This document shows, piece after piece, positions 20,843 to 35,239 of a stretch of DNA of 35,576 bases. The translations under genes were made by a program, and so were the position numbers. Below the pieces are notes generated by a model. The model saw only the letters and a list, made by a program, of their open reading frames with translations, ran no database searches and had not been told where the DNA came from. Positions within the stretch are counted from its first letter, which is position 1. Each line of letters starts with the position of its first letter. This DNA comes from Spirochaetota bacterium. Lineage in GTDB: Bacteria; Spirochaetota; Spirochaetia; Treponematales; UBA12059. The stretch is taken from assembly GCA_018262985.1 (NCBI GenBank), contig JADFDI010000003.1, positions 1-35,576 of the forward strand. Reading direction: 5' to 3'.

Positions 20843-22384
20843 CTATTCCACGTACAGCCTTCGCGTCGCGTAGGCGGGGTCGCTCGTCAGGTTGACGCCG
20901 AGGCGTCTCAGGCCCGCTTCGTCGCCTGGGCTCGGGATGTGGGTCAGGTGCATCTGGCAGCCGCGGAGCTCGCCCGCGCGGTCGAGGCAGGCCTGCACCG
21001 AGGGGTTGAGCGCGCCGGAGATGGCCAGCGCGATCAGCGCCTCGTCGACGTCGAGGCTGGCCGAGCGGCCGTGCAGCGCCCCGCGCTTCAGTCGCCCGAT
21101 CGACTCGATGACCACGGGCGAAAGCAGGTGGATGCCGTCGGGCAGCTTCGCGAGCGACTTGAGGGCGTTGATCACCGCGGCCGTGGCCGCGTGGAGGAGC
21201 TTCGAGTTGTGGCCCGTGACGATGCGGCCGTCCGCGAGCTCGAGGGCGGCGCCGCAGGTGGCCGTGTCGGAGGGCGCCTCGTCCTCGCGGTCCGGCGCGG
21301 CGCGGGCGGCGGCCTCCGCGGCTTCCGCGGCGGCGCGCGCGGCCGGCACGACGCGGCGGATCTCGGGGCCGATGCCGAGCTCCTTGAGCAGGCGGTCCGC
21401 CTTGTTGAGCGCCTCGCGGTCGGCCATGCCCATCATGTACTCGCACGAGCAGCGGAGGTAGCGGCGCGCGACTTCCTGCCGCGCGGCCTCGCGCGCGGCC
21501 TCGTCGTCGACGATGGCGAAGCCGGCGCGGTTGACGCCCATCTCCGTGGGCGAGCGGTAGACGGCCGCCTCGCCCGTGATGCGCTCCAGGATGGCCTTGA
21601 GGATGGGGAAGGACTCGACGTCGCGGTTGTAGTTGACCGCCGTCTCGCCCGTGGCCTCCAGATGGAAGGGATCGATCAGGTTCGAGTCCTTGAGATCGAG
21701 CGTCGCGGCCTCGTAGGCGAGGTTCACCGGATGCTTGAGCGGCAGGTTCCAGATGGGGAAGGTCTCGAACTTGGCGTACATGGCGCGAGTTCCCGCGCGG
21801 TGGTCGTGCCAGACCTGCGAGAGGCAGGTGGCCATCTTCCCCGAGCCCGGCCCGGGACCGGTGACGACCACGAGGGGTTTGGTGGTCTCGACGCGGGGGT
21901 TGGCGCCGTAGCCTTCCTCCGAGACGATCAGGTCGAGGTCGGTGGGATAGCCGCGGGTGGGCTCGTGGACGTAGACCCGTACGCCGCGGTTCTCGAGCTT
22001 GGTCCGGAAGGCCTTGGCCTGGGCCTGTCCCTCCCAGCGGGTGATGACGACGGCGGAGACGCCGAGCCCCCACTCGCCCAGGTCGTCGATGAGCTTCATG
22101 GCGTCGGCGTCGTAGGTGATGCCGTAGTCCGCGCGGATCTTGCGGTGCTCGATGGCGCCGGCGTGGATGCAGAGCACGATCTCCGCGTCGCGCTCGAGCT
22201 CCTTGAGCAGGCGCACCTTGACGTTGGGGTCGTAGCCGGGCAGGACGCGCGCCGCGTGGAAGTCCGCGAGCAGCTTGCCGCCGAACTCGAGGTAGAGGCG
22301 GCCGTCGAAGCGATGCATCCGCTCGCGGATGAAGCCCGCCTGCTCGCGGATGTACAGGTCGTTGTCGAACGCTTTGACGGTCAT
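20843..22384 (-). CDS. DUF1846 family protein, 513 aa
   Basis: Cytoplasmic protein of the DUF1846 family, whose function remains uncharacterised although the fold includes a P-loop-like region. ATG 22384 follows GGGAGGAACC. Recognisable conserved blocks: MTVKAFDNDLYIREQAGFIR, RLYLEFGGKLLADFHAARVL, IVLCIHAGAIEHRKIRADYG, YPTDLDLIVSEEGYGANPRV, the Walker-like VVVTGPGPGSGKMATCLSQV, the segment AGTRAMYAKFETFPIWNLPL, and PFHLEATGETAVNYNRDVES. Full-length members are about 500 residues, as here. An alanine-rich stretch (about 340-365) is a small local insertion. It is transcribed alone and convergent with the DUF362 gene. DUF1846 members have no agreed reaction, so I assign none. Confidence 0.9.
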   Translation of the reverse strand: MTVKAFDNDLYIREQAGFIRERMHRFDGRLYLEFGGKLLADFHAARVLPGYDPNVKVRLLKELERDAEIVLCIHAGAIEHRKIRADYGITYDADAMKLIDDLGEWGLGVSAVVITRWEGQAQAKAFRTKLENRGVRVYVHEPTRGYPTDLDLIVSEEGYGANPRVETTKPLVVVTGPGPGSGKMATCLSQVWHDHRAGTRAMYAKFETFPIWNLPLKHPVNLAYEAATLDLKDSNLIDPFHLEATGETAVNYNRDVESFPILKAILERITGEAAVYRSPTEMGVNRAGFAIVDDEAAREAARQEVARRYLRCSCEYMMGMADREALNKADRLLKELGIGPEIRRVVPAARAAAEAAEAAARAAPDREDEAPSDTATCGAALELADGRIVTGHNSKLLHAATAAVINALKSLAKLPDGIHLLSPVVIESIGRLKRGALHGRSASLDVDEALIALAISGALNPSVQACLDRAGELRGCQMHLTHIPSPGDEAGLRRLGVNLTSDPAYATRRLYVE

Positions 22385-22475
22385 CGGTTCCTCCCGGGGA
22401 CCTCCGCGCCGGGAGGGCCTCGGGGGTACAGGATAGCGGATTCCCGCCGGACGTGTCGCGGGGGAGGGTGCGTGC

Positions 22476-22481
22476 TACAAT
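22476..22481 (+). promoter_or_regulatory. -10 box for the 22547 operon
   Basis: TACAAT at 22476-22481, 65 nt before the ATG at 22547, in the intergenic region that also serves the divergent DUF1846 gene. No convincing -35 box. The ribosome-binding site is AAGGAG. Confidence 0.35.
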
Positions 22482-22546: not shown

Positions 22547-23644
22547 ATGGAACCAAGGTCCGCTTCCCGCCCCGCGCCTCCGTCCATGTTCGCGCTCGCC
22601 GCCGCCGCTGCGCTCGTCGCGCTCGCGCCGTCCGCTCCCCTTTGGGCGCAGGTTCCGCCCGGTTTCAGCATGGGCCTCGTGACCGACGTGGGCGGCATCG
22701 ACGACCGTTCCTTCAACGAGATGGCCTGGCGGGGCCTGGAACGCTTCGCGGCCGATAACGGCCTGAATCCTTCCTCGGGCGCCAGGTACCTCGATTCGAG
22801 TTCCGAAAGCGACTATCTCCCGAACCTCTCGGCCTTCGGCAAGGCGGGCGCCAGCCTCGTGGTCGCGCCGGGCTTCCTGTTCTACGACATCCTGCCGGTC
22901 GCCGCGGCGAGGTACCCGCGCAGCACCTTCCTCATCATCGATTCGGTCGCGCTCGACCGGAACGACGCGGTCCCGTCCAACGTGGCCTGCGCGGTCTTCA
23001 AGGAGCACGAAGGCGCCTTCCTCGTCGGCGTCGCGGCCGGCCTCAAGGCGAAGGAAGCCGGCGCGGATGTCGTGGGCTTCCTGGGCGGCATGCAGTTCGC
23101 CCTGATCGAGAAATTCCTGGCCGGTTTCGAGCAGGGCGTCAGGGCGGTACATCCCGGCGCGCTGGTGCTCGTCGAATGGGCCGGCACCTTCATCGACCCG
23201 GAAATCGGCCGGACCCTGGCCCTGAAGATGTTCGACGAGGGCGCCTACGTCGTCTTCCACGCGGCGGGCTACACGGCCAAGGGCGCGATCATGGCGGCGA
23301 AGGAATCCACCCTCGACGGCGACCCCCGCTGGATCATCGGCGCGGACATCGACCAGTACGCGGACGGGGTCTACGCGGAGGGGAAGTCCGTTATCCTCAC
23401 CTCGTTCGTCAAGCGGGTCGACGTAGCGGCCTACGAGGTCGCGCGCCTGACCTTCGAAGGCCGCTTCCCCGGCGGCGAGATCCTCGAGTTCGGCGCGCGC
23501 GAAGGCGGCGTCGGCCTGCCCGAGGCCAACCCGAACCTGGGCCCGGAACAGCTTTCGACCATCGAGGAATACCGCGCGCGGATCGCCTCGGGCGAGCTCG
23601 TCGTATCGGAAGAACCCGGGGAATCGGACGGAGGCGCGTGGTGA
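22547..23644 (+). CDS. BMP-family (PnrA/TmpC-like) periplasmic binding protein, 365 aa
   Basis: Solute-binding protein of the basic-membrane-protein family. In Treponema pallidum the relative PnrA (TmpC) binds purine nucleosides for an ABC importer. ATG 22547 is preceded by GAAGGAGAAATCAAT. The signal peptide ends WAQ, with no lipobox cysteine, so unlike PnrA it should be soluble in the periplasm. The family motif is plain in FSMGLVTDVGGIDDRSFNEM, with Asp and Asn positions kept. Further core blocks are SLVVAPGFLFYDILPVAAAR, KEHEGAFLVGVAAGLKAKEA, VVGFLGGMQFALIEKFLAGF, YVVFHAAGYTAKGAIMAAKE and WIIGADIDQYADGVYAEGKS, which holds the ligand-contact Asp. No permease or ATPase gene follows: the next two genes are unknown exported proteins, coupled by overlaps. 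The ligand may therefore differ from nucleosides. Confidence 0.9.
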   Translation: MEPRSASRPAPPSMFALAAAAALVALAPSAPLWAQVPPGFSMGLVTDVGGIDDRSFNEMAWRGLERFAADNGLNPSSGARYLDSSSESDYLPNLSAFGKAGASLVVAPGFLFYDILPVAAARYPRSTFLIIDSVALDRNDAVPSNVACAVFKEHEGAFLVGVAAGLKAKEAGADVVGFLGGMQFALIEKFLAGFEQGVRAVHPGALVLVEWAGTFIDPEIGRTLALKMFDEGAYVVFHAAGYTAKGAIMAAKESTLDGDPRWIIGADIDQYADGVYAEGKSVILTSFVKRVDVAAYEVARLTFEGRFPGGEILEFGAREGGVGLPEANPNLGPEQLSTIEEYRARIASGELVVSEEPGESDGGAW

Positions 23645-25344
23645 GGGCGAAGACGGACTTGACGAGGCCAGGCTCCCGGTCTCGCGCCGCCGTGTTGTTC
23701 GCGGTACTGGGCCTCGCCGCGCTCGGCTCGGCGGCCGCGCAAGGAGCGTCGAACGGCCCCTTCGCGCCGAAGCCACCCATCGCGAAAGCGCTTCCCGACG
23801 GGTCGTTCGAGCTGGCCTTCGACGTGCCCCGCGCTTACGCGCTCAGGGTGGCGGTATGGGATCCGGCCGGAGCCCGCATCGCGGTCTACGGCCGCGCCGA
23901 CGAGGACTACGGCAAGGTCTGGGTCGACCTCGGCCACGGGCTCGAGGGTCCCTTCGAGAGCGTCGGCAACCTCGTCTTCTCCCCGGACGGACGGCGCGCC
24001 GCCTGCTCGGTGCAGCTCGGATATGAGGAATACTGGGTCCTCGAAGGCGGCAAGCGCTCCGGTCCCTGGTCGGACGTCACCGGGACGGCCTTCTCGCCCG
24101 ATTCCTCCCGCTTCCTCTTCGTCGGCTACGTCCGCGGGACGGGCGCCACCGAGGTGGTCGTCGACTTCGAGAGCCGCGGCCGCGGGAGGGAACCCGGCTT
24201 CTTCGCGGGCTCCCGCTGGTTCTACCGGAGCTACGAGGGCGGCTGGTCGGTCGTCACCGATTCGGGGGTCTCGGGACCTTGGGACTATATACCGAACGTC
24301 CGCGTCGCGCCCGACGGCTCGGATATCATGTACCCCGCGACGGACGCGGAGGGGCGCCTCTGGATCTGCACCGCCGACCGCTCGTACGGCCCATTCCCGA
24401 CCTACCCGCCGAACGGAGCGGAGGAATCGGGAATCCGCGGCATCGTCATGGACCTCTCCTCGCTGCCCTTCCTCGAGCCGGGCTTCGCGCCGGACGGCCG
24501 TACGCCCCGCTTCTTCGTGCGCGAGGAACGCGGCAGCGCGTACGCGTGGACGGTGTACGACGGCGACGCGGTCGCCGGCGGGCCCTGGATGGAACCCGGA
24601 AACCTGGCCGCGCGACCCTTGCCCTCGCCGGACCTGAAGCGGGCGGCGTTCATCGTCCGCGAAGGCGAGAAATACTACATCGAGGAAAGCGCCGGCCGCC
24701 TCGGCCCCTTCGGCGACGTCAGGCGCCTCGCGTACTCGGCCGACGCTTCGACCTTCGCGGCCCAGGTTCGCGGCGCGGCATGGGACGAATGGATCTACGG
24801 CTCGGGTTTCAAGCTGGGACCCTACCGCAACCTCGACTCCTGGGAGCTCGTCGCCGACGGTTCGCTCGCCGTCGTGTGGAACGGTTCGCGCTACGACCGT
24901 TCGAGCACGGCGAGCTTCCGGACGCGCGACGGCGAACTCGCGCCCTTCGACGCGGCCCTGGTGCCGGAGTCGACGATCTTCGGCGCGGGCCCGCGCTCCG
25001 TGCCTTCCGGCGCCGGATCGCTGGTCCGCGGCGAGGCGAAAAGCTTCGGTCCCTACGAAGGACTCTCGCGGATCTACGCGGGCACGCCCGGCGGCGGCGC
25101 GCTCTACGCGACGGAGACCGCGGACTCGTGGACGCTCTGGGCCGACGGGAAGGCGCTTCTGTCCACGCCGGACGTTCCGTTCAACCTGGAGGTCCCGGGA
25201 ACCCGGGACGCCGTCGTTCCCGTCATGGCGGAATACCGAGCGCTCGCCTGGCTGTCCTTCTCGGGCGGCTTTCCCCGCGGCCTGAGCGCCGTGGATCCGG
25301 AGACCGGCAAGGGACGCTGGATCGGCGTCGGGAGGGACGAATGA
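23641..25344 (+). CDS. Exported propeller-like protein with GP[FWY] repeats, 567 aa
   Basis: Secreted protein of unknown family, second gene of the operon. The GTG at 23641 overlaps the upstream stop (GTGA) and follows GGAGG at 7 nt. A signal peptide covers about 14-35 (RAAVLFAVLGLAALG, then SAAAQG). The rest consists of beta-rich repeats that each centre on Gly-Pro-aromatic: G103, G141, G212, G250, G314, G355, G393 and G470, plus a variant APF at 434. Most lie 36-41 residues apart, as expected for blades of a beta-propeller or WD40/TolB-like fold. Each motif is often followed after 10-12 residues by SPDG, SPDS or APDG, as in TolB-type blades. It has no catalytic residues I can identify. By position it may partner the BMP-family protein and the 731-aa protein. 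Confidence 0.75.
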   Translation: MRAKTDLTRPGSRSRAAVLFAVLGLAALGSAAAQGASNGPFAPKPPIAKALPDGSFELAFDVPRAYALRVAVWDPAGARIAVYGRADEDYGKVWVDLGHGLEGPFESVGNLVFSPDGRRAACSVQLGYEEYWVLEGGKRSGPWSDVTGTAFSPDSSRFLFVGYVRGTGATEVVVDFESRGRGREPGFFAGSRWFYRSYEGGWSVVTDSGVSGPWDYIPNVRVAPDGSDIMYPATDAEGRLWICTADRSYGPFPTYPPNGAEESGIRGIVMDLSSLPFLEPGFAPDGRTPRFFVREERGSAYAWTVYDGDAVAGGPWMEPGNLAARPLPSPDLKRAAFIVREGEKYYIEESAGRLGPFGDVRRLAYSADASTFAAQVRGAAWDEWIYGSGFKLGPYRNLDSWELVADGSLAVVWNGSRYDRSSTASFRTRDGELAPFDAALVPESTIFGAGPRSVPSGAGSLVRGEAKSFGPYEGLSRIYAGTPGGGALYATETADSWTLWADGKALLSTPDVPFNLEVPGTRDAVVPVMAEYRALAWLSFSGGFPRGLSAVDPETGKGRWIGVGRDE

Positions 25345-27536
25345 CCCCGAAGAATTCCCATGCCGCGCGCCTGGCCCTGGTTCTCGCGGTCGCGGCATGC
25401 GCCTTCGCGGGCGCCGCCTTCGGCCAGACCGTGAGCCTTCCCGCCTGGGTCGCGGGGCCGGCTTCCCCCATCGCCTTCGCGGACGGCGCGAAGGTGGATT
25501 CCACCGGGTCGGCCGCCGAGCTGTTCGGCTTCCCGGGCGTCGCCCGCGGCATCTCCGTGTCCGGCGGCGAACTGCGTATCGATGCCTTCGAGCTCGCGCC
25601 GCCGCCCGGCGCGGCCTTCGTCGCTCCGCGGCACCCCCTGCCGGGCTTCGAGCCCGTGCCGGCCTTCCGCTCGCTCGTCCTGACGCCCGGAACGACGGGG
25701 CCCTTCCAGGCCGACTGCAGCTACGTCCGCACGAGCGACCCCTTCGGCGGCACGTTCGAGGAAGGCGGCGCGAACCTGGCCTGGGACAACTGGCACCTCC
25801 TGGCTTTCGAGCTGGCGCTCGGAGCGGACGGGCTCCTCGCCCGGAACGGCTTCGTCATCAACCTCCGCGAGGAGTCCGAACGGGACGGAGTCCTGAACGG
25901 CGACCGCGCCGCCATCGTCGCGGCCACGATCGTCGAGCTGCGCTTCGCCCCCGGCTGGAAGCCCGCGCCGGATCCGGGCGCGTACGCCGACCCCTGGGTC
26001 TCCATGCCGGGCCTCGGGGACCTTGCCGTCGCCTCGGTAGCGCTCGCGCTGGAAGGCGGCGCCCTCGTCGCGCTCGTCGAGCCGCGCGAACCCGGCGAGG
26101 ACGACTGGGACCTGGCCGCGGCGCCCTTCGAGCGCGCCACCATCGACGGCCGGGGCCAGGTGCTTTCCTCCGCGGCGCGCGGCGGCGTAGCGGCCTTCGG
26201 GTGGGAAGGGGCCTTCGAGCTCGAGTTCGAGGCCGAAACCGCGGGCGTGCCCATGACCGGCTCGGGCCTCGTGCGCCTGCCCGAGTCGCTCGGCGGCGGC
26301 GAATTCCGGAGCGCCCCCGGCGCGGTGAGAGCCTGGGCCGGATCGTACTGGGAAGGGGAAAACTACTTCGAGGTCTCGGCCTTCGCCGAACCCGTGCGCG
26401 TCGGCTACGGCGGCTGGGAATTCGCGCTCGAGGACGCCTCGATAGGCCGCGCGGGCGACATGCAGCACATCTGGGCGCTCCTGGCTCCGGGCGCGGATCT
26501 CTCGTGGCGCGACGCGCCGATTCCACTCGAGGGACTCGCCTTCTCGGGCGAAGGCTACTGGCTCGGTCCGGGTACGCTCGCGGAGCCGACGGCCCTGTCG
26601 CTCTTCGATGGACGCTTCACCGCCCAGGAGGCGGTCTTCTACGAGGACGGCCTCGTCGCCCGCGGCTTCCTCGAGCTGCCCCGGGAATTCGGCGGCTACT
26701 CGATCTACATCGACCGCCTTTTCCTCTACCCGGACGGCTCCTTCGACATGGCGGAGCCCGTCTGGGCGTACGCCTTCGACCTGCCCGCCGGAAGCTTCCG
26801 GCTCGAGGACGGCTGGCTTTCGGACGAGGGCTTCGGTTTCGGCTCGATGGCCTTCGATCCCGCCTGGCAGGCGTTCGACGGGAGGCTCCGCTTCCATGGC
26901 GGAATGTTCCCGAACGAGGGAGGGCTGGAATTCCGCGGCGTCGACCCATTCAGGATCGATGGCTTCGTCTTCTTCGGGGAAGCCGCCGTGAGCAACGGCG
27001 TCCTCGCGGTATCCGGCGGCGTTTACTATCCGGAGGCGCTGCCGTACGCGCTGAGGCGACGCGATCCGGCCACGCTCCGCATCCCCCTCGACGGCTCCGC
27101 GCCCTCGGTCGAATCCTCTTTCGACTCGGAGCTCACCGTGGAGTACGGCGCGGCCGGCGCCGTGCGGGTTTCGCGCTGCGTCCTCGAGCTCTCGGGAGCT
27201 TCGCTCCGGGTGCGGCTGGACGGCGTACGGCCCGCGTGGACCGCGGCCGACCTCGAAGGCCTGTCCCTCGACGGGGTGCGCATGTCAGCCGAGGGCGCCT
27301 GGGATTTCGGCGCCGCCGTCCTCGCGGCGCCGGTGACGCTCGAGCGCGAAGGCGTAGCGTACGCCCTGGATGAGCTCGTCCTCGTGGACGAGGAGCGCAT
27401 CCTGCTCTCGGGCCGCGCGACCTGGACGGCCGCCGGCGGCGGCGTCGAGTCGCACGGCTGCGCGCTCTCGGTCGGCTTCGACGGTTCCGTGACGATCGTC
27501 GTCGCGGAGGGCGACGAGTTGCGCTACCTGCGCTGA
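25341..27536 (+). CDS. Large exported beta-rich protein of unknown family, 731 aa
   Basis: Third gene of the operon. ATG 25341 overlaps the propeller gene's stop by ATGA. Its signal peptide is MTPKNSHAARLALVLAVAAC and onward to about FGQ. The preceding hydrophobic part ends in VAACAFAGAAFG, and whether the Cys is lipidated is uncertain, because the lipobox is poor. The mature protein is almost all beta strand with few lysines and many Gly, Phe, Trp and Glu. Similar sentences recur, such as GSGLVRLPESLGGGEF and ARGFLELPREFGGYSI, and also LEGLAFSGEGYWLG and LEGLSLDGVRMSAEGAW, which suggests repeated beta-sandwich or AsmA-like solenoid units. It has no enzyme motif I can name. Because it is co-translated with the BMP and propeller genes, I infer the three act together at the cell surface. 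A hairpin terminator follows at 27539. Confidence 0.75.
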   Translation: MTPKNSHAARLALVLAVAACAFAGAAFGQTVSLPAWVAGPASPIAFADGAKVDSTGSAAELFGFPGVARGISVSGGELRIDAFELAPPPGAAFVAPRHPLPGFEPVPAFRSLVLTPGTTGPFQADCSYVRTSDPFGGTFEEGGANLAWDNWHLLAFELALGADGLLARNGFVINLREESERDGVLNGDRAAIVAATIVELRFAPGWKPAPDPGAYADPWVSMPGLGDLAVASVALALEGGALVALVEPREPGEDDWDLAAAPFERATIDGRGQVLSSAARGGVAAFGWEGAFELEFEAETAGVPMTGSGLVRLPESLGGGEFRSAPGAVRAWAGSYWEGENYFEVSAFAEPVRVGYGGWEFALEDASIGRAGDMQHIWALLAPGADLSWRDAPIPLEGLAFSGEGYWLGPGTLAEPTALSLFDGRFTAQEAVFYEDGLVARGFLELPREFGGYSIYIDRLFLYPDGSFDMAEPVWAYAFDLPAGSFRLEDGWLSDEGFGFGSMAFDPAWQAFDGRLRFHGGMFPNEGGLEFRGVDPFRIDGFVFFGEAAVSNGVLAVSGGVYYPEALPYALRRRDPATLRIPLDGSAPSVESSFDSELTVEYGAAGAVRVSRCVLELSGASLRVRLDGVRPAWTAADLEGLSLDGVRMSAEGAWDFGAAVLAAPVTLEREGVAYALDELVLVDEERILLSGRATWTAAGGGVESHGCALSVGFDGSVTIVVAEGDELRYLR

Positions 27537-27673: not shown

Positions 27674-28522
27674 ATGCATGCTTCCAATGAGAAGCCGGGC
27701 GCGCCGGTCTCGGGCGTCGGACGCTTCGTCGTCTCGGTCACGGTCGCTCACGTCCTGACCTACTTCGTGTTCGGCTTCATCGCCTCGAACGTCTTCGGCT
27801 ACCGCGAGCTCTTCGAGCTGCCGGTCATCCGCGACTACTACCGGCCCTTCGGCTCGGTGTCGAACCTGCTCGGGCCGGCGGTGCAAGTGCTGCGCGGCCT
27901 CGTCTTCGCTCTCGTGCTCCTGCCCTTCCGGAAGACCCTCGCCGAGTCGAAGCTGGGCTGGCTCTGGCTCTGGTGCCTCTTCGTCGGCCTCGGCATCCTG
28001 GGCACCCCGAGCGCGGCACCGTCCTCGGTCGAAGGCGTCGTCTACTCGAAGCTGCCCTTTTGGTTCCACGCCATCGGCCTGCCGGAGATCGGCCTCCAGA
28101 CCCTCAGCTTCAGCGTCCTTGTCCACGCCGGGCTCACGGGCAAGCGGCTCGGAGGCGCGGGCAAGGCTGGCGAGCTCCTCAAGGCCTTGAGCGTCGCCTG
28201 CGTGGCCTTCGCCGGCTACACGGTCGTCTCGATCGGCTTCGCGCTCGCGTCCGGCGCCGACGTCGCCGAAGGCGGCACGGACCTCCGGGTGCTCGGACAG
28301 TTCGTCGCCCCGCTCGTCCTCGCCTTCGCCGCGGCGCTGGCCTCGGGGCGCTTCGGCCTCCTCCCGACGCACGCCGCCCTCTACGTCCTCTCGGCCGCCT
28401 CGCTCTGGGCCTACCAGCGCTTCGCCCTGGGAGGGGCGAACCCGGCCTACGTCCTGCTGGCGCCGGTCCTGCCTGCGGCCATCTCCATGCTGCTCAACCG
28501 GAAAAAGGGCGCGAAGCAATGA
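27674..28522 (+). CDS. Integral membrane protein of unknown family, 282 aa
   Basis: Inner-membrane protein with about seven to eight hydrophobic helices and no named domain. The ATG at 27674 has GGAGG 6 nt upstream; the frame extends further left (27602) without a ribosome-binding site. It begins MHASNEKPGAPVSGVGRFVV. Visible helices: SVTVAHVLTYFVFGFIAS, AVQVLRGLVFALVLLPF, SKLGWLWLWCLFVGLGILGT, PEIGLQTLSFSVLVHAGL, LLKALSVACVAFAGYTVVSI, VLGQFVAPLVLAFAAALASG, THAALYVLSAASLWAY and YVLLAPVLPAAISMLL. The tail NRKKGAKQ is positively charged and thus presumably cytoplasmic. It is a single gene following the operon terminator. Its last 29 bp overlap the convergent GH1 gene. The role is unknown. Confidence 0.8.
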   Translation: MHASNEKPGAPVSGVGRFVVSVTVAHVLTYFVFGFIASNVFGYRELFELPVIRDYYRPFGSVSNLLGPAVQVLRGLVFALVLLPFRKTLAESKLGWLWLWCLFVGLGILGTPSAAPSSVEGVVYSKLPFWFHAIGLPEIGLQTLSFSVLVHAGLTGKRLGGAGKAGELLKALSVACVAFAGYTVVSIGFALASGADVAEGGTDLRVLGQFVAPLVLAFAAALASGRFGLLPTHAALYVLSAASLWAYQRFALGGANPAYVLLAPVLPAAISMLLNRKKGAKQ

Positions 28523-32744: not shown

Positions 32745-33947
32745 ATGCCGTGGTCGGGCAGGGAGACGGGCGACACCGCATCGCGCATCGTCAGGGAAAT
32801 CTGGCGGCACCCCGGCGTCTCCCGCTCGGGCCTGGCCGAGCGCCTCTCGGTCGACAAGTCCACCGTCACCAACCAGGTCGCGCGCCTCCTCGAGGGCGGA
32901 GTCGTGGTGGAGCTCGAGGAGGGCGACGCGAGCTCTCGCGGAGGCCGGAAGCCCATCCGCCTCGCCGTCAACCGCGACTACGGCCGCGTGCTCGGCATCG
33001 AGATCCAGGTCGAGTCCTGGGTGGCCGTGCTGGTCGATCTCGCGGGCGACGTGCTCGGCGAGGTGCGCGGCGAAAGGCCCGTGCGCGAGGGCAACTTCGC
33101 CGAGGCCTCGCTCGCCATCGTCGCGGAGGCGCGCGCGGCCCTGGTGCCGGACGGCGCCCGCCTGCTCGGCGTCGGCATCGGCACGGGCGGCCTCATCGAC
33201 CTCAAGAAGAGCGTCATCCGCTATTCCGTGCCGCTCGGCATCTCGAAGCCGATCGACTTCCACCGGGACGTCGCCGCGCGGCTCGACGTGCCCTGCCTCA
33301 TCGAGAACGACGCCAACTGCTGCGCCTGGGGCGAGCTCGCCTTCAACAAGGGCGAGGACCTGCGCAACTTCCTCTTCGCCCTCGTCGAATTCCGCAAGGA
33401 CCACGTCAGCCGCGACGGCTACGGCGGCATGGGCATCGGCCTCGGCATCGTCGTGGGCGGCAAGCTCTGGTCCGGGGCCCACGGCAACGCCGGCGAGTTC
33501 CGCTCCGTGCTCTGCGACGGCTCCGGAGAGCTCCAGGTCTCCGCCCCGAAGGACCTGGTGCGCCGCGCCGGCGAGGACGCGGACGCCCTGTTCGCCGTGG
33601 CCGACGAGGTGGCCCGCAACGTCGCCATGCTCGTCAACACCATGGATTTCGAGCGGGTCTTCGTGGGCGGCGACATCGAGGGCCTGCCCATCGATTTCCC
33701 GGCCCTGCTCGGCCGTCGCCTCGCGGACAACTGGATGTATCCCTTCCCGGTGTCCGCGCGCATCGACTACTCGAGCCTCGGCAACCGAGCCGTGGCGTTC
33801 GGCGCCGCCGGCATGGTGCTCGACAATCTCGTCTCGAGCCGCCTCCTCCTCGCGGAGGACGGCTCGTCCCTTCCAGGCTCGAACCCCGCAGGGGGTGGCA
33901 ATAGTTTCGCGGAGAGGGACTCGCGGGTCCCGGGAGGCATTCGATGA
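32745..33947 (+). CDS. ROK-family transcriptional repressor (NagC/XylR type), 400 aa
   Basis: Sugar-responsive transcription factor. ATG 32745 follows GAGGGAGG. Residues about 15-75 form a winged helix-turn-helix: HPGVSRSGLAERLSVDKSTV, then TNQVARLLEGGVVVEL. The ROK domain follows, with GVGIGTGGLIDLKKSVI, CLIENDANCCAWGE (Glu187 onward, sugar-contact residues), and GMGIGLGIVVGGKLWSGAHG. The ATP-binding DxGxT motif is not kept, as usual for repressors rather than kinases. The zinc motif normally following (C-x-C-G-x2-G-C-x-E) is missing; the region reads AHGNAGEFRSVLCDGSGEL with a single Cys. The C-terminal 30 residues are a flexible extension that overlaps the binding-protein start by ATGA. 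It most likely represses this locus until the imported mannoside or its product binds. Confidence 0.9.
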   Translation: MPWSGRETGDTASRIVREIWRHPGVSRSGLAERLSVDKSTVTNQVARLLEGGVVVELEEGDASSRGGRKPIRLAVNRDYGRVLGIEIQVESWVAVLVDLAGDVLGEVRGERPVREGNFAEASLAIVAEARAALVPDGARLLGVGIGTGGLIDLKKSVIRYSVPLGISKPIDFHRDVAARLDVPCLIENDANCCAWGELAFNKGEDLRNFLFALVEFRKDHVSRDGYGGMGIGLGIVVGGKLWSGAHGNAGEFRSVLCDGSGELQVSAPKDLVRRAGEDADALFAVADEVARNVAMLVNTMDFERVFVGGDIEGLPIDFPALLGRRLADNWMYPFPVSARIDYSSLGNRAVAFGAAGMVLDNLVSSRLLLAEDGSSLPGSNPAGGGNSFAERDSRVPGGIR

Positions 33948-35239
33948 AGAAGCTGATCATCGTCGCTCTGATGATCGCCGTCGCCGCGTCCTTGCAGGCG
34001 CAGGTGACGCTCAAGGTCCTCAACTACCAGCAGGCCGACCAGGCCGGGTACCTCGAGGACGTCGCCATCTGGGAACGGTTCCAGACGCTGAACCCGGACA
34101 TCAAGCTCGAGATGGAGGTCCTGTTCAACGACCCCTACCACGAGAAGCTGCAGGCCTACGCCGCCGCCGGCACCTTGCCCGACGTGTTCTACGTCTGGCC
34201 GGGCGCCCGCTCCGCCGTCATCCACGAGAAGAAGCTGGCCAAGGACCTCGCCAAGCTGCTCGGGCCCGACTACCTCAAGAACTTCACCGGCGCGGCCACC
34301 AATCCGAAGAACCAGCTCGGCGGCTACCTCGTGCAGCTCCCGCAGTCCTTCACCTACACCTCGGTCATGTACGTCAACGTGAAGCTGCTCAAGGACAACG
34401 GCTTCGCGGTCCCGAAGACCTACGCCGACCTCAAGAAGATGGTGCCCAAGCTCAAGGCCAAGGGCATCGCGGTCATGATGCTGCCCAACAAGGACGGTTG
34501 GCCGGGACAGTCCTGCCTCTTCTCCACCGTCGCGGGCCGCATCGCCGGCGACAAGTTCTTCGACGACGTGCTCGCCGGCAAGGCCAAGTTCACCGACAAG
34601 GCCTTCGTCGACTCGCTCAAGGTGGTCGAGGACCTCTACAAGGACGGCATCATCCAGCGCTCCGACAACGCGATCGGCTACGGCGAGGGCCCCGGCCTCT
34701 TCGCCTCCGGAAAGGCCGCCATCTTCCTCGACGGCGACTGGCGCACGGGCGCGTACATCACCGACAAGGCGTCCGGCAAGGCCCTCATCGACCCGAAGGC
34801 CCAGGCTTCCGACTTCGCCCTGCTCCCGATCGTGGCTCTGCCCGGCGAGAAGTTCCCCGGCGTCAACTCCGCGGTCGCCGGCACCGGCTGGGCGGTTTCC
34901 GGCTCCATCCCCGCGGGCTCCGCGAAGGAAGAGGCCGCCGCCCGCCTGATCAAGTACCTGTACTCCGAGGAAGTCCAGGCCATCCGCTACTCGACCGGCG
35001 CCTACGTCCCGACGCGCCTCGGCGTCAAGGCGACGCTCGAGCCGCTCCCGGCCATGCTGCCCGGCTTCTACGCCGCCAACCCGAAGACCAGCTACGTCAT
35101 CGACGGCGTGCTCGATCCGGCCGTGTACAACGTGATCAACGACGGCCTGGTGGCCATCGGCAACGGCACCAAGACCGCCGCCGTGGTGGCCAAGGAAGTC
35201 CAGGCCGCCTTCGAAGCCTGGAAGGCCTCGAAGAAGTAG
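33944..35239 (+). CDS. ABC sugar transporter, extracellular solute-binding protein family 1, 431 aa
   Basis: Periplasmic receptor for an oligosaccharide ABC importer. The ATG overlaps the ROK stop. The signal peptide MKKLIIVALMIAVAASLQAQ has no lipobox, so it should be free in the periplasm. Family SBP-1 blocks: DVAIWERFQTLNPDIKLEME, YAAAGTLPDVFYVWPGARSA, FTYTSVMYVNVKLLKDNGFA (the VMYVNVKL strand is typical), PKTYADLKKMVPKLKAKGIA, FASGKAAIFLDGDWRTGAYI and AGTGWAVSGSIPAGSAKEEA. Many Lys and fewer Arg residues distinguish it from the neighbours. Ligand is probably a beta-manno- or gluco-oligosaccharide, given the GH1 and GH2 genes across the promoter. A 283-bp region with three hairpins separates it from the permease, as commonly seen where the receptor is made in excess. 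Confidence 0.93.
   Translation: MKKLIIVALMIAVAASLQAQVTLKVLNYQQADQAGYLEDVAIWERFQTLNPDIKLEMEVLFNDPYHEKLQAYAAAGTLPDVFYVWPGARSAVIHEKKLAKDLAKLLGPDYLKNFTGAATNPKNQLGGYLVQLPQSFTYTSVMYVNVKLLKDNGFAVPKTYADLKKMVPKLKAKGIAVMMLPNKDGWPGQSCLFSTVAGRIAGDKFFDDVLAGKAKFTDKAFVDSLKVVEDLYKDGIIQRSDNAIGYGEGPGLFASGKAAIFLDGDWRTGAYITDKASGKALIDPKAQASDFALLPIVALPGEKFPGVNSAVAGTGWAVSGSIPAGSAKEEAAARLIKYLYSEEVQAIRYSTGAYVPTRLGVKATLEPLPAMLPGFYAANPKTSYVIDGVLDPAVYNVINDGLVAIGNGTKTAAVVAKEVQAAFEAWKASKK

Follow-up and report, generated by a model that had tools for sequence, protein, structure and literature searches.

Recombinational mosaicism of a gene pair for predicted exported proteins, with an optional PnrA-type binding protein, in Spirochaetota

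The conserved unit of a three-gene operon in a Spirochaetota bacterium (assembly GCA_018262985.1, contig JADFDI010000003.1) is a pair of genes for a propeller-like protein and a β-rich repeat protein, with the gene of a BMP/PnrA-type binding protein as optional cargo at its 5' end. Across three congeneric genomes this pair shows recombinational mosaicism. For the pair we propose, at roughly even chances of being right, a diversifying, exported and probably surface-exposed recognition or adhesion complex, accompanied in some genomes by a soluble nucleoside-binding BMP. The operon lies in a window of 35,576 nucleotides, by which we mean the whole stretch of DNA analysed here, and the genome it belongs to is referred to as G000.

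All three genes of the operon are on the plus strand and encode the BMP (22547-23644, 365 aa, preceded by a good Shine-Dalgarno sequence), the propeller-like protein (23641-25344, 567 aa) and the β-repeat protein (25341-27536, 731 aa). At both junctions the stop codon overlaps the next start codon by four bases, as GTGA at 23641..23644 with the propeller gene starting on GTG at 23641, and as ATGA at 25341..25344 with the β-repeat gene starting on ATG at 25341. The same GTGA overlap is found in the congener G002, and the ATGA overlap is kept in the congeners G001 and G002. The three frames have a high third-position GC content, and the GC pattern over the codon positions backs all of them. Each of the three N-termini is a hydrophobic, signal-like segment, and the proteins are probably exported via signal peptides. 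A probable extended -10 element, TGcTACAAT at 22473..22481 (plus strand), would serve as the promoter of the operon; the three congeneric genomes all retain TG-N-TACAAT, even G001, which has no BMP gene. A consensus sigma-70 scan gave no -35-containing promoter, a terminator scan found none and an Rfam scan of the window returned no match.

The trio is flanked upstream by a divergent PRK13663-family gene (20843-22384, minus strand), which has its promoter region in common with the trio operon, and downstream by the gene of a 282-aa membrane protein (27674-28522). No ABC permease or ATPase genes stand beside the trio, either in the window or at the trio of G002, and a gene for a shared regulator or transducer is likewise missing. 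Further along the window, at 32745-35239, the genes of a ROK-type repressor and then a sugar-binding protein adjoin a β-glucosidase gene and a large glycosidase-like gene; judged from sequence only, this is an ordinary sugar-use cluster.

Both the propeller and the β-repeat protein are encoded in five genomes from three genera (G000, G001, G002, G008 and G012). Their genes lie side by side in G000, G001, G002 and G008, and in G012 the β-repeat gene begins in place after the propeller gene, at a contig end. The BMP gene stands ahead of the pair in G000 and G002 only, and as these are congeners its co-occurrence with the pair is confounded by kinship. The sequence-only reading had taken all three genes for a candidate system, yet the gene-order check across related genomes which it proposed shows that the trio, present in two of the five genomes, is not conserved as such. 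The gene order in G001 is conserved to either side of the locus (PRK13663-family protein 97%, P0004 94%, β-glucosidase 94%) and the upstream region is near-identical to that of G000 up to CTACAATCGGC, including TGcTACAAT, with the BMP gene missing. The BMP gene is therefore a passenger between the promoter and the pair. The corresponding position ahead of the propeller gene in G012 is held by the gene of a 671-aa exported TPR protein (L052:87-2102), which is possibly another interchangeable passenger.

Among the three congeners the pair diverges far more than its surroundings. The PRK13663-family protein is 97-98% identical among G000, G001 and G002 and G000 and G001 share 94% identity in the membrane protein encoded downstream, whereas identities are 60-77% for the propeller and 57-69% for the β-repeat protein among the same three genomes; dN by the NG86 method is 0.16-0.36 in the pair versus 0.012-0.037 in the flanks. 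The differences are arranged in blocks. From about residue 185 to 484 of the propeller (24193..25092, plus strand) G000 and G001 agree against G002, while towards both ends (residues 1-124 and 485-567) G001 agrees with G002. In the β-repeat protein G000 and G001 agree against G002 from about residue 423 to 603 (26607..27149, plus strand), and over residues 1-422 it is again G001 and G002 that agree. When the order of informative sites was permuted in a walk test (137 sites in the propeller gene, 184 in the β-repeat gene, 5000 shuffles), the block structure reached p=0.0002 in each gene, which is the floor of 5000 shuffles, with three genomes compared, of which G001 and G002 are metagenome-assembled. 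The signal holds in both genes on third positions alone, and the flanking PRK13663-family gene gave p=0.18 in the same test.

Recombination is the natural explanation of this pattern because rate variation alone cannot switch which pair of genomes agrees. Co-assembly of the G001 and G002 alleles is unlikely, as these genomes come from differently named isolates. No silent donor cassettes of the vls type were found in the G000 genome, where the propeller and the β-repeat protein are each single-copy, so that exchange between strains is a likelier source of the blocks than a silent archive. Such an exchange of blocks between related genomes is frequent in surface proteins.

The 567-aa protein carries nine GP[FWY] motifs where 0.72 are expected from shuffled sequences (at most five in 2000 shuffles). 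Its score against Pfam PD40 is 18.6 bits, slightly below the cut-off of 20.9, and the homologue in G008 exceeds the cut-off with 25.1 bits. The AlphaFold model is propeller-like with a pLDDT of 71, and its structural matches comprise many propellers, those of TolB and S9 peptidases among them, with a best Z of 9.6 over 146 residues. Profile and structure searches together point to a β-propeller of the PD40/TolB/S9 type. The protein resembles PD40/TolB-type propellers in its predicted export, in its blade repeats and in these structural matches; it differs from them in the GP[FWY] signature, the PD40 score below cut-off and the lack of any Pfam match to a TolB N-terminal domain. Its gene is not at a tol-pal locus, the trio's neighbours being the PRK13663-family and membrane-protein genes described above. 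Homologues in the four other genomes are 28-77% identical, and no relative was found in viral contigs. TmcD (NCBIfam NF045725) was considered for this protein and rejected as shared blade similarity, its score of 27.7 bits lying below the cut-off of 440.

For the 731-aa protein no relative was found in Pfam, NCBIfam or the sequences of the PDB. It contains a 38-aa repeat, LDEDGLSASGSLRLPESLGGRELALNNFRIDPDGSIES, which has no Pfam match and of which an iterated HMM finds two copies on the plus strand, a partial one at residues 306-322 (26256..26306) and a full one at residues 433-469 (26637..26747). Its homologues have two to three copies, and five to nine are found in the centre of giant exported proteins of 4.3-5.8 thousand aa from other Spirochaetota; the window protein is a free-standing relative of the giants' central domain. 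Loci of the giant family are L053:71-14428, L109-L116, L133 and L154-L158. Ig-like and TIG domains are present in the two giants that were scanned, and giants lie near type II secretion genes in five genomes (G001, G034, G183, G106 and G568). In most loci an exported 440-530-aa gene is found immediately upstream of the giant gene, often overlapping it or 1-3 bases off. What the giants share with the window protein is thus the repeat, the central domain and, in most loci, the closely spaced or overlapping upstream gene for an exported protein; they differ in their length, in their Ig-like domains, none of which Pfam finds in the window protein, and in the type II secretion genes near several of them. 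Homology of the upstream proteins to the window propeller was considered but is not supported by sequence (hhalign probability 0.2%), and the giant loci are therefore an analogy of layout only. In G000 the type II-like genes are on contig C14, with none in the window and no linkage to the trio locus. Literature searches turned up no direct report on giant treponemal proteins with type II secretion.

The AlphaFold model of the β-repeat protein is almost all β but weak (pLDDT 64.5, built on four sequences), and Foldseek returned no match to it at E <= 0.001. Its top structural matches are LptD (Z 5.7 over 113 residues and Z 5.5 over 231 residues) and OspA-type sheets, at Z of 5-5.7 together, all of which are not significant by the comparison tool's own note on Z under 8.

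The identity of the BMP is clear: it matches PF02608 with 222.7 bits (cut-off 24.1) over positions 5-297 of the 301 in the profile, and the closest solved structure is that of T. pallidum TmpC/PnrA (PDB 2fqw, E=1.6e-87, residues 40-354). Its N-terminus resembles a type I signal peptide ending in LWAQ and its sole Cys is residue 148; it therefore has no lipobox and cannot be a lipoprotein. The features from which the sequence-only reading started, namely a receptor without lipobox, the GTGA and ATGA overlaps, a GP[FWY] protein and a β-rich protein of 731 aa, are thus borne out, as is the orphan status of the receptor at both trio loci.

The nucleoside pocket of P48/PnrA consists of D, F, N, D, F, G, D and K according to PMC12892991, and in an alignment to this set D53, F56, N57, D132, F215, D267 and K289 of the window BMP are identical. 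F215 aligns with Phe186 of PnrA, a stacking residue (PMC7093131). The pocket Gly, in the AGGTG loop, is ambiguous, as G241 is kept and the next Gly is Y242. This second Gly is replaced by Tyr in the window BMP, by Leu in G002 and by Trp in G012; the residue after AG is hence bulky in the transporter-less group, whereas the aligned transporter-linked receptors have Gly or Ala. Since nearly all of the PnrA pocket is kept, the window BMP probably binds nucleosides. It shares with PnrA/TmpC the pocket residues, including the two stacking Phe as well as the Asp and Lys of the pocket, but lacks a lipobox and adjoining ABC genes, has Tyr in the AGGTG loop and is encoded in an operon with two exported β proteins. 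In the tree it groups with the BMP of G002 (100/99), and the transporter-less BMP of G012 joins this group with lower support (89/98); all genomes in which transporter-less BMPs of this clade were seen bear the pair. Literature searches on transporter-less PnrA receptors gave nothing direct. A precedent for a function in nucleoside binding without transport is the PnrA-type protein P48 of Mycoplasma agalactiae and M. bovis, which PMC12892991 shows to have a role that depends on nucleoside binding and not on transport. P48 is unlike the window BMP in being a lipoprotein and in being encoded at an ABC transporter locus, and the available text of that paper reports no propeller or β-protein partner for it.

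A complete PnrA-type importer is encoded elsewhere in G000, on contig C2, with a lipoprotein receptor (C2a), a second BMP, an ATPase and two permeases. The window BMP is a paralogue, 53% identical to C2a, and a mosaic between it and the C2 copy is not evident. Within L044:2818-15554 the importer adjoins a bacterial microcompartment cluster with shell proteins, EutN-type proteins, an aldehyde dehydrogenase-like protein and deoC-like genes; the gene order of importer and microcompartment is similar in G001 and G008, and the arrangement suggests that a deoxyribose microcompartment is supplied by nucleoside uptake. G001 has two BMP copies that are joined to exported β-rich domains at the C-terminus of the latter (L048:1065-3041 and L049:495-2798). 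The first of these has its own signal peptide, and its pocket residues are altered (HDGAFN, VEFDQ); a stop interrupts the second, which seems degenerate.

In the mechanism that we propose, at the even chances given above, the translationally coupled propeller and β-repeat protein would come together beyond the inner membrane as a complex for recognition or adhesion whose variable faces are exposed, the β-repeat protein representing, in small and free-standing form, a domain otherwise found in giant exported proteins. Homologous recombination between strains would swap blocks in both genes while the flanks stay near-constant, the pattern to be expected where diversifying or frequency-dependent selection acts on surface proteins. 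The BMP gene would have been gained, or lost, between the common promoter and the pair; its product would have arisen from a PnrA nucleoside receptor as a soluble periplasmic nucleoside binder, and may either supply the C2 importer or act as a ligand-responsive partner of the pair. Surface exposure, the formation of a complex, the ligand and the choice between these two BMP roles are what we infer. One point against a surface complex is the lipoprotein-like start (VAASC) of the β-repeat homologue in G008, which could mean a periplasmic-facing anchor.

How far the BMP belongs to the pair at all is where the other explanations part from this one. It may be no more than a second receptor of the C2 importer, diffusing in the periplasm and docking on the shared permease, with its linkage to the pair incidental. 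We consider this possible though rather doubtful. A complete importer with a receptor 53% identical to the window BMP is at hand, the nucleoside pocket is kept and no spare BMP-type permease set was found elsewhere in the G000 genome; moreover, a lipobox is likewise missing from the transporter-linked orthologues of G036 and G008, which makes its lack in the window BMP weak evidence against an importer role. Against it, the GTGA coupling is kept in G002 despite a sequence difference of 32-40%, the window BMP evolves faster (68% identity between G000 and G002) than C2a (88% between G000 and G001), and the loop residue after AG is bulky, while the transporter-linked copies in the comparison have Gly or Ala there. 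The earlier proposal that the BMP is not part of an importer hence stands as plausible, given the lack of an adjacent transporter in G000 and G002, the GTGA overlap kept in G002 and the fusions in G001, but it is weakened by the full importer with a closely related receptor in the same genome.

That all three proteins form a periplasmic or surface sensing complex, in which nucleoside binding by the BMP would alter the propeller/β assembly, is a more specific form of the sequence-only reading and unlikely in our view. The genes overlap in both trio genomes, the transporter-less BMPs of the clade occur only in G000, G002 and G012, all bearing the pair, and the BMP domains of G001 are fused to other exported β-rich proteins, but the pair persists without a BMP in G001, in G008 and, at that locus, in G012. 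The BMP is therefore dispensable for the role of the pair, and the missing regulator or transducer gene also argues against such a complex. Very improbable is a device for lipid transport or envelope biogenesis, made of an LptD/LptA-like β-groove protein and a TolB-like propeller. LptD and OspA-type sheets are the best matches of the β model and TolB is among those of the propeller model, yet Z values under 8 on a low-confidence model are not significant, and there is no Pfam match to OstA, LptC, AsmA or TolB-N. Mosaicism between congeners is also unusual for envelope machinery, in contrast to what is seen in the pair. A bolder extension of the recognition complex, which we hold to be improbable, is modular ligand-responsive recognition outside any transporter, in which interchangeable binding modules, here a purine-nucleoside receptor, would be slotted between a fixed promoter and the mosaic pair in a surface complex of free-living spirochaetes.

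The sequence-only reading had called its candidate system undescribed, a term which fits best the β-repeat family and the mosaicism, neither of which it contained. If the proposed mechanism is true, block exchange at a fixed locus is a means by which environmental spirochaetes diversify their exported proteins. This would be comparable to the antigenically variable proteins of pathogens, but without host immunity as an obvious cause. The window BMP is a further example of a PnrA-type receptor that has no transporter of its own, and a repeat family without a Pfam match would link small exported proteins of these organisms to giants encoded near type II secretion genes.
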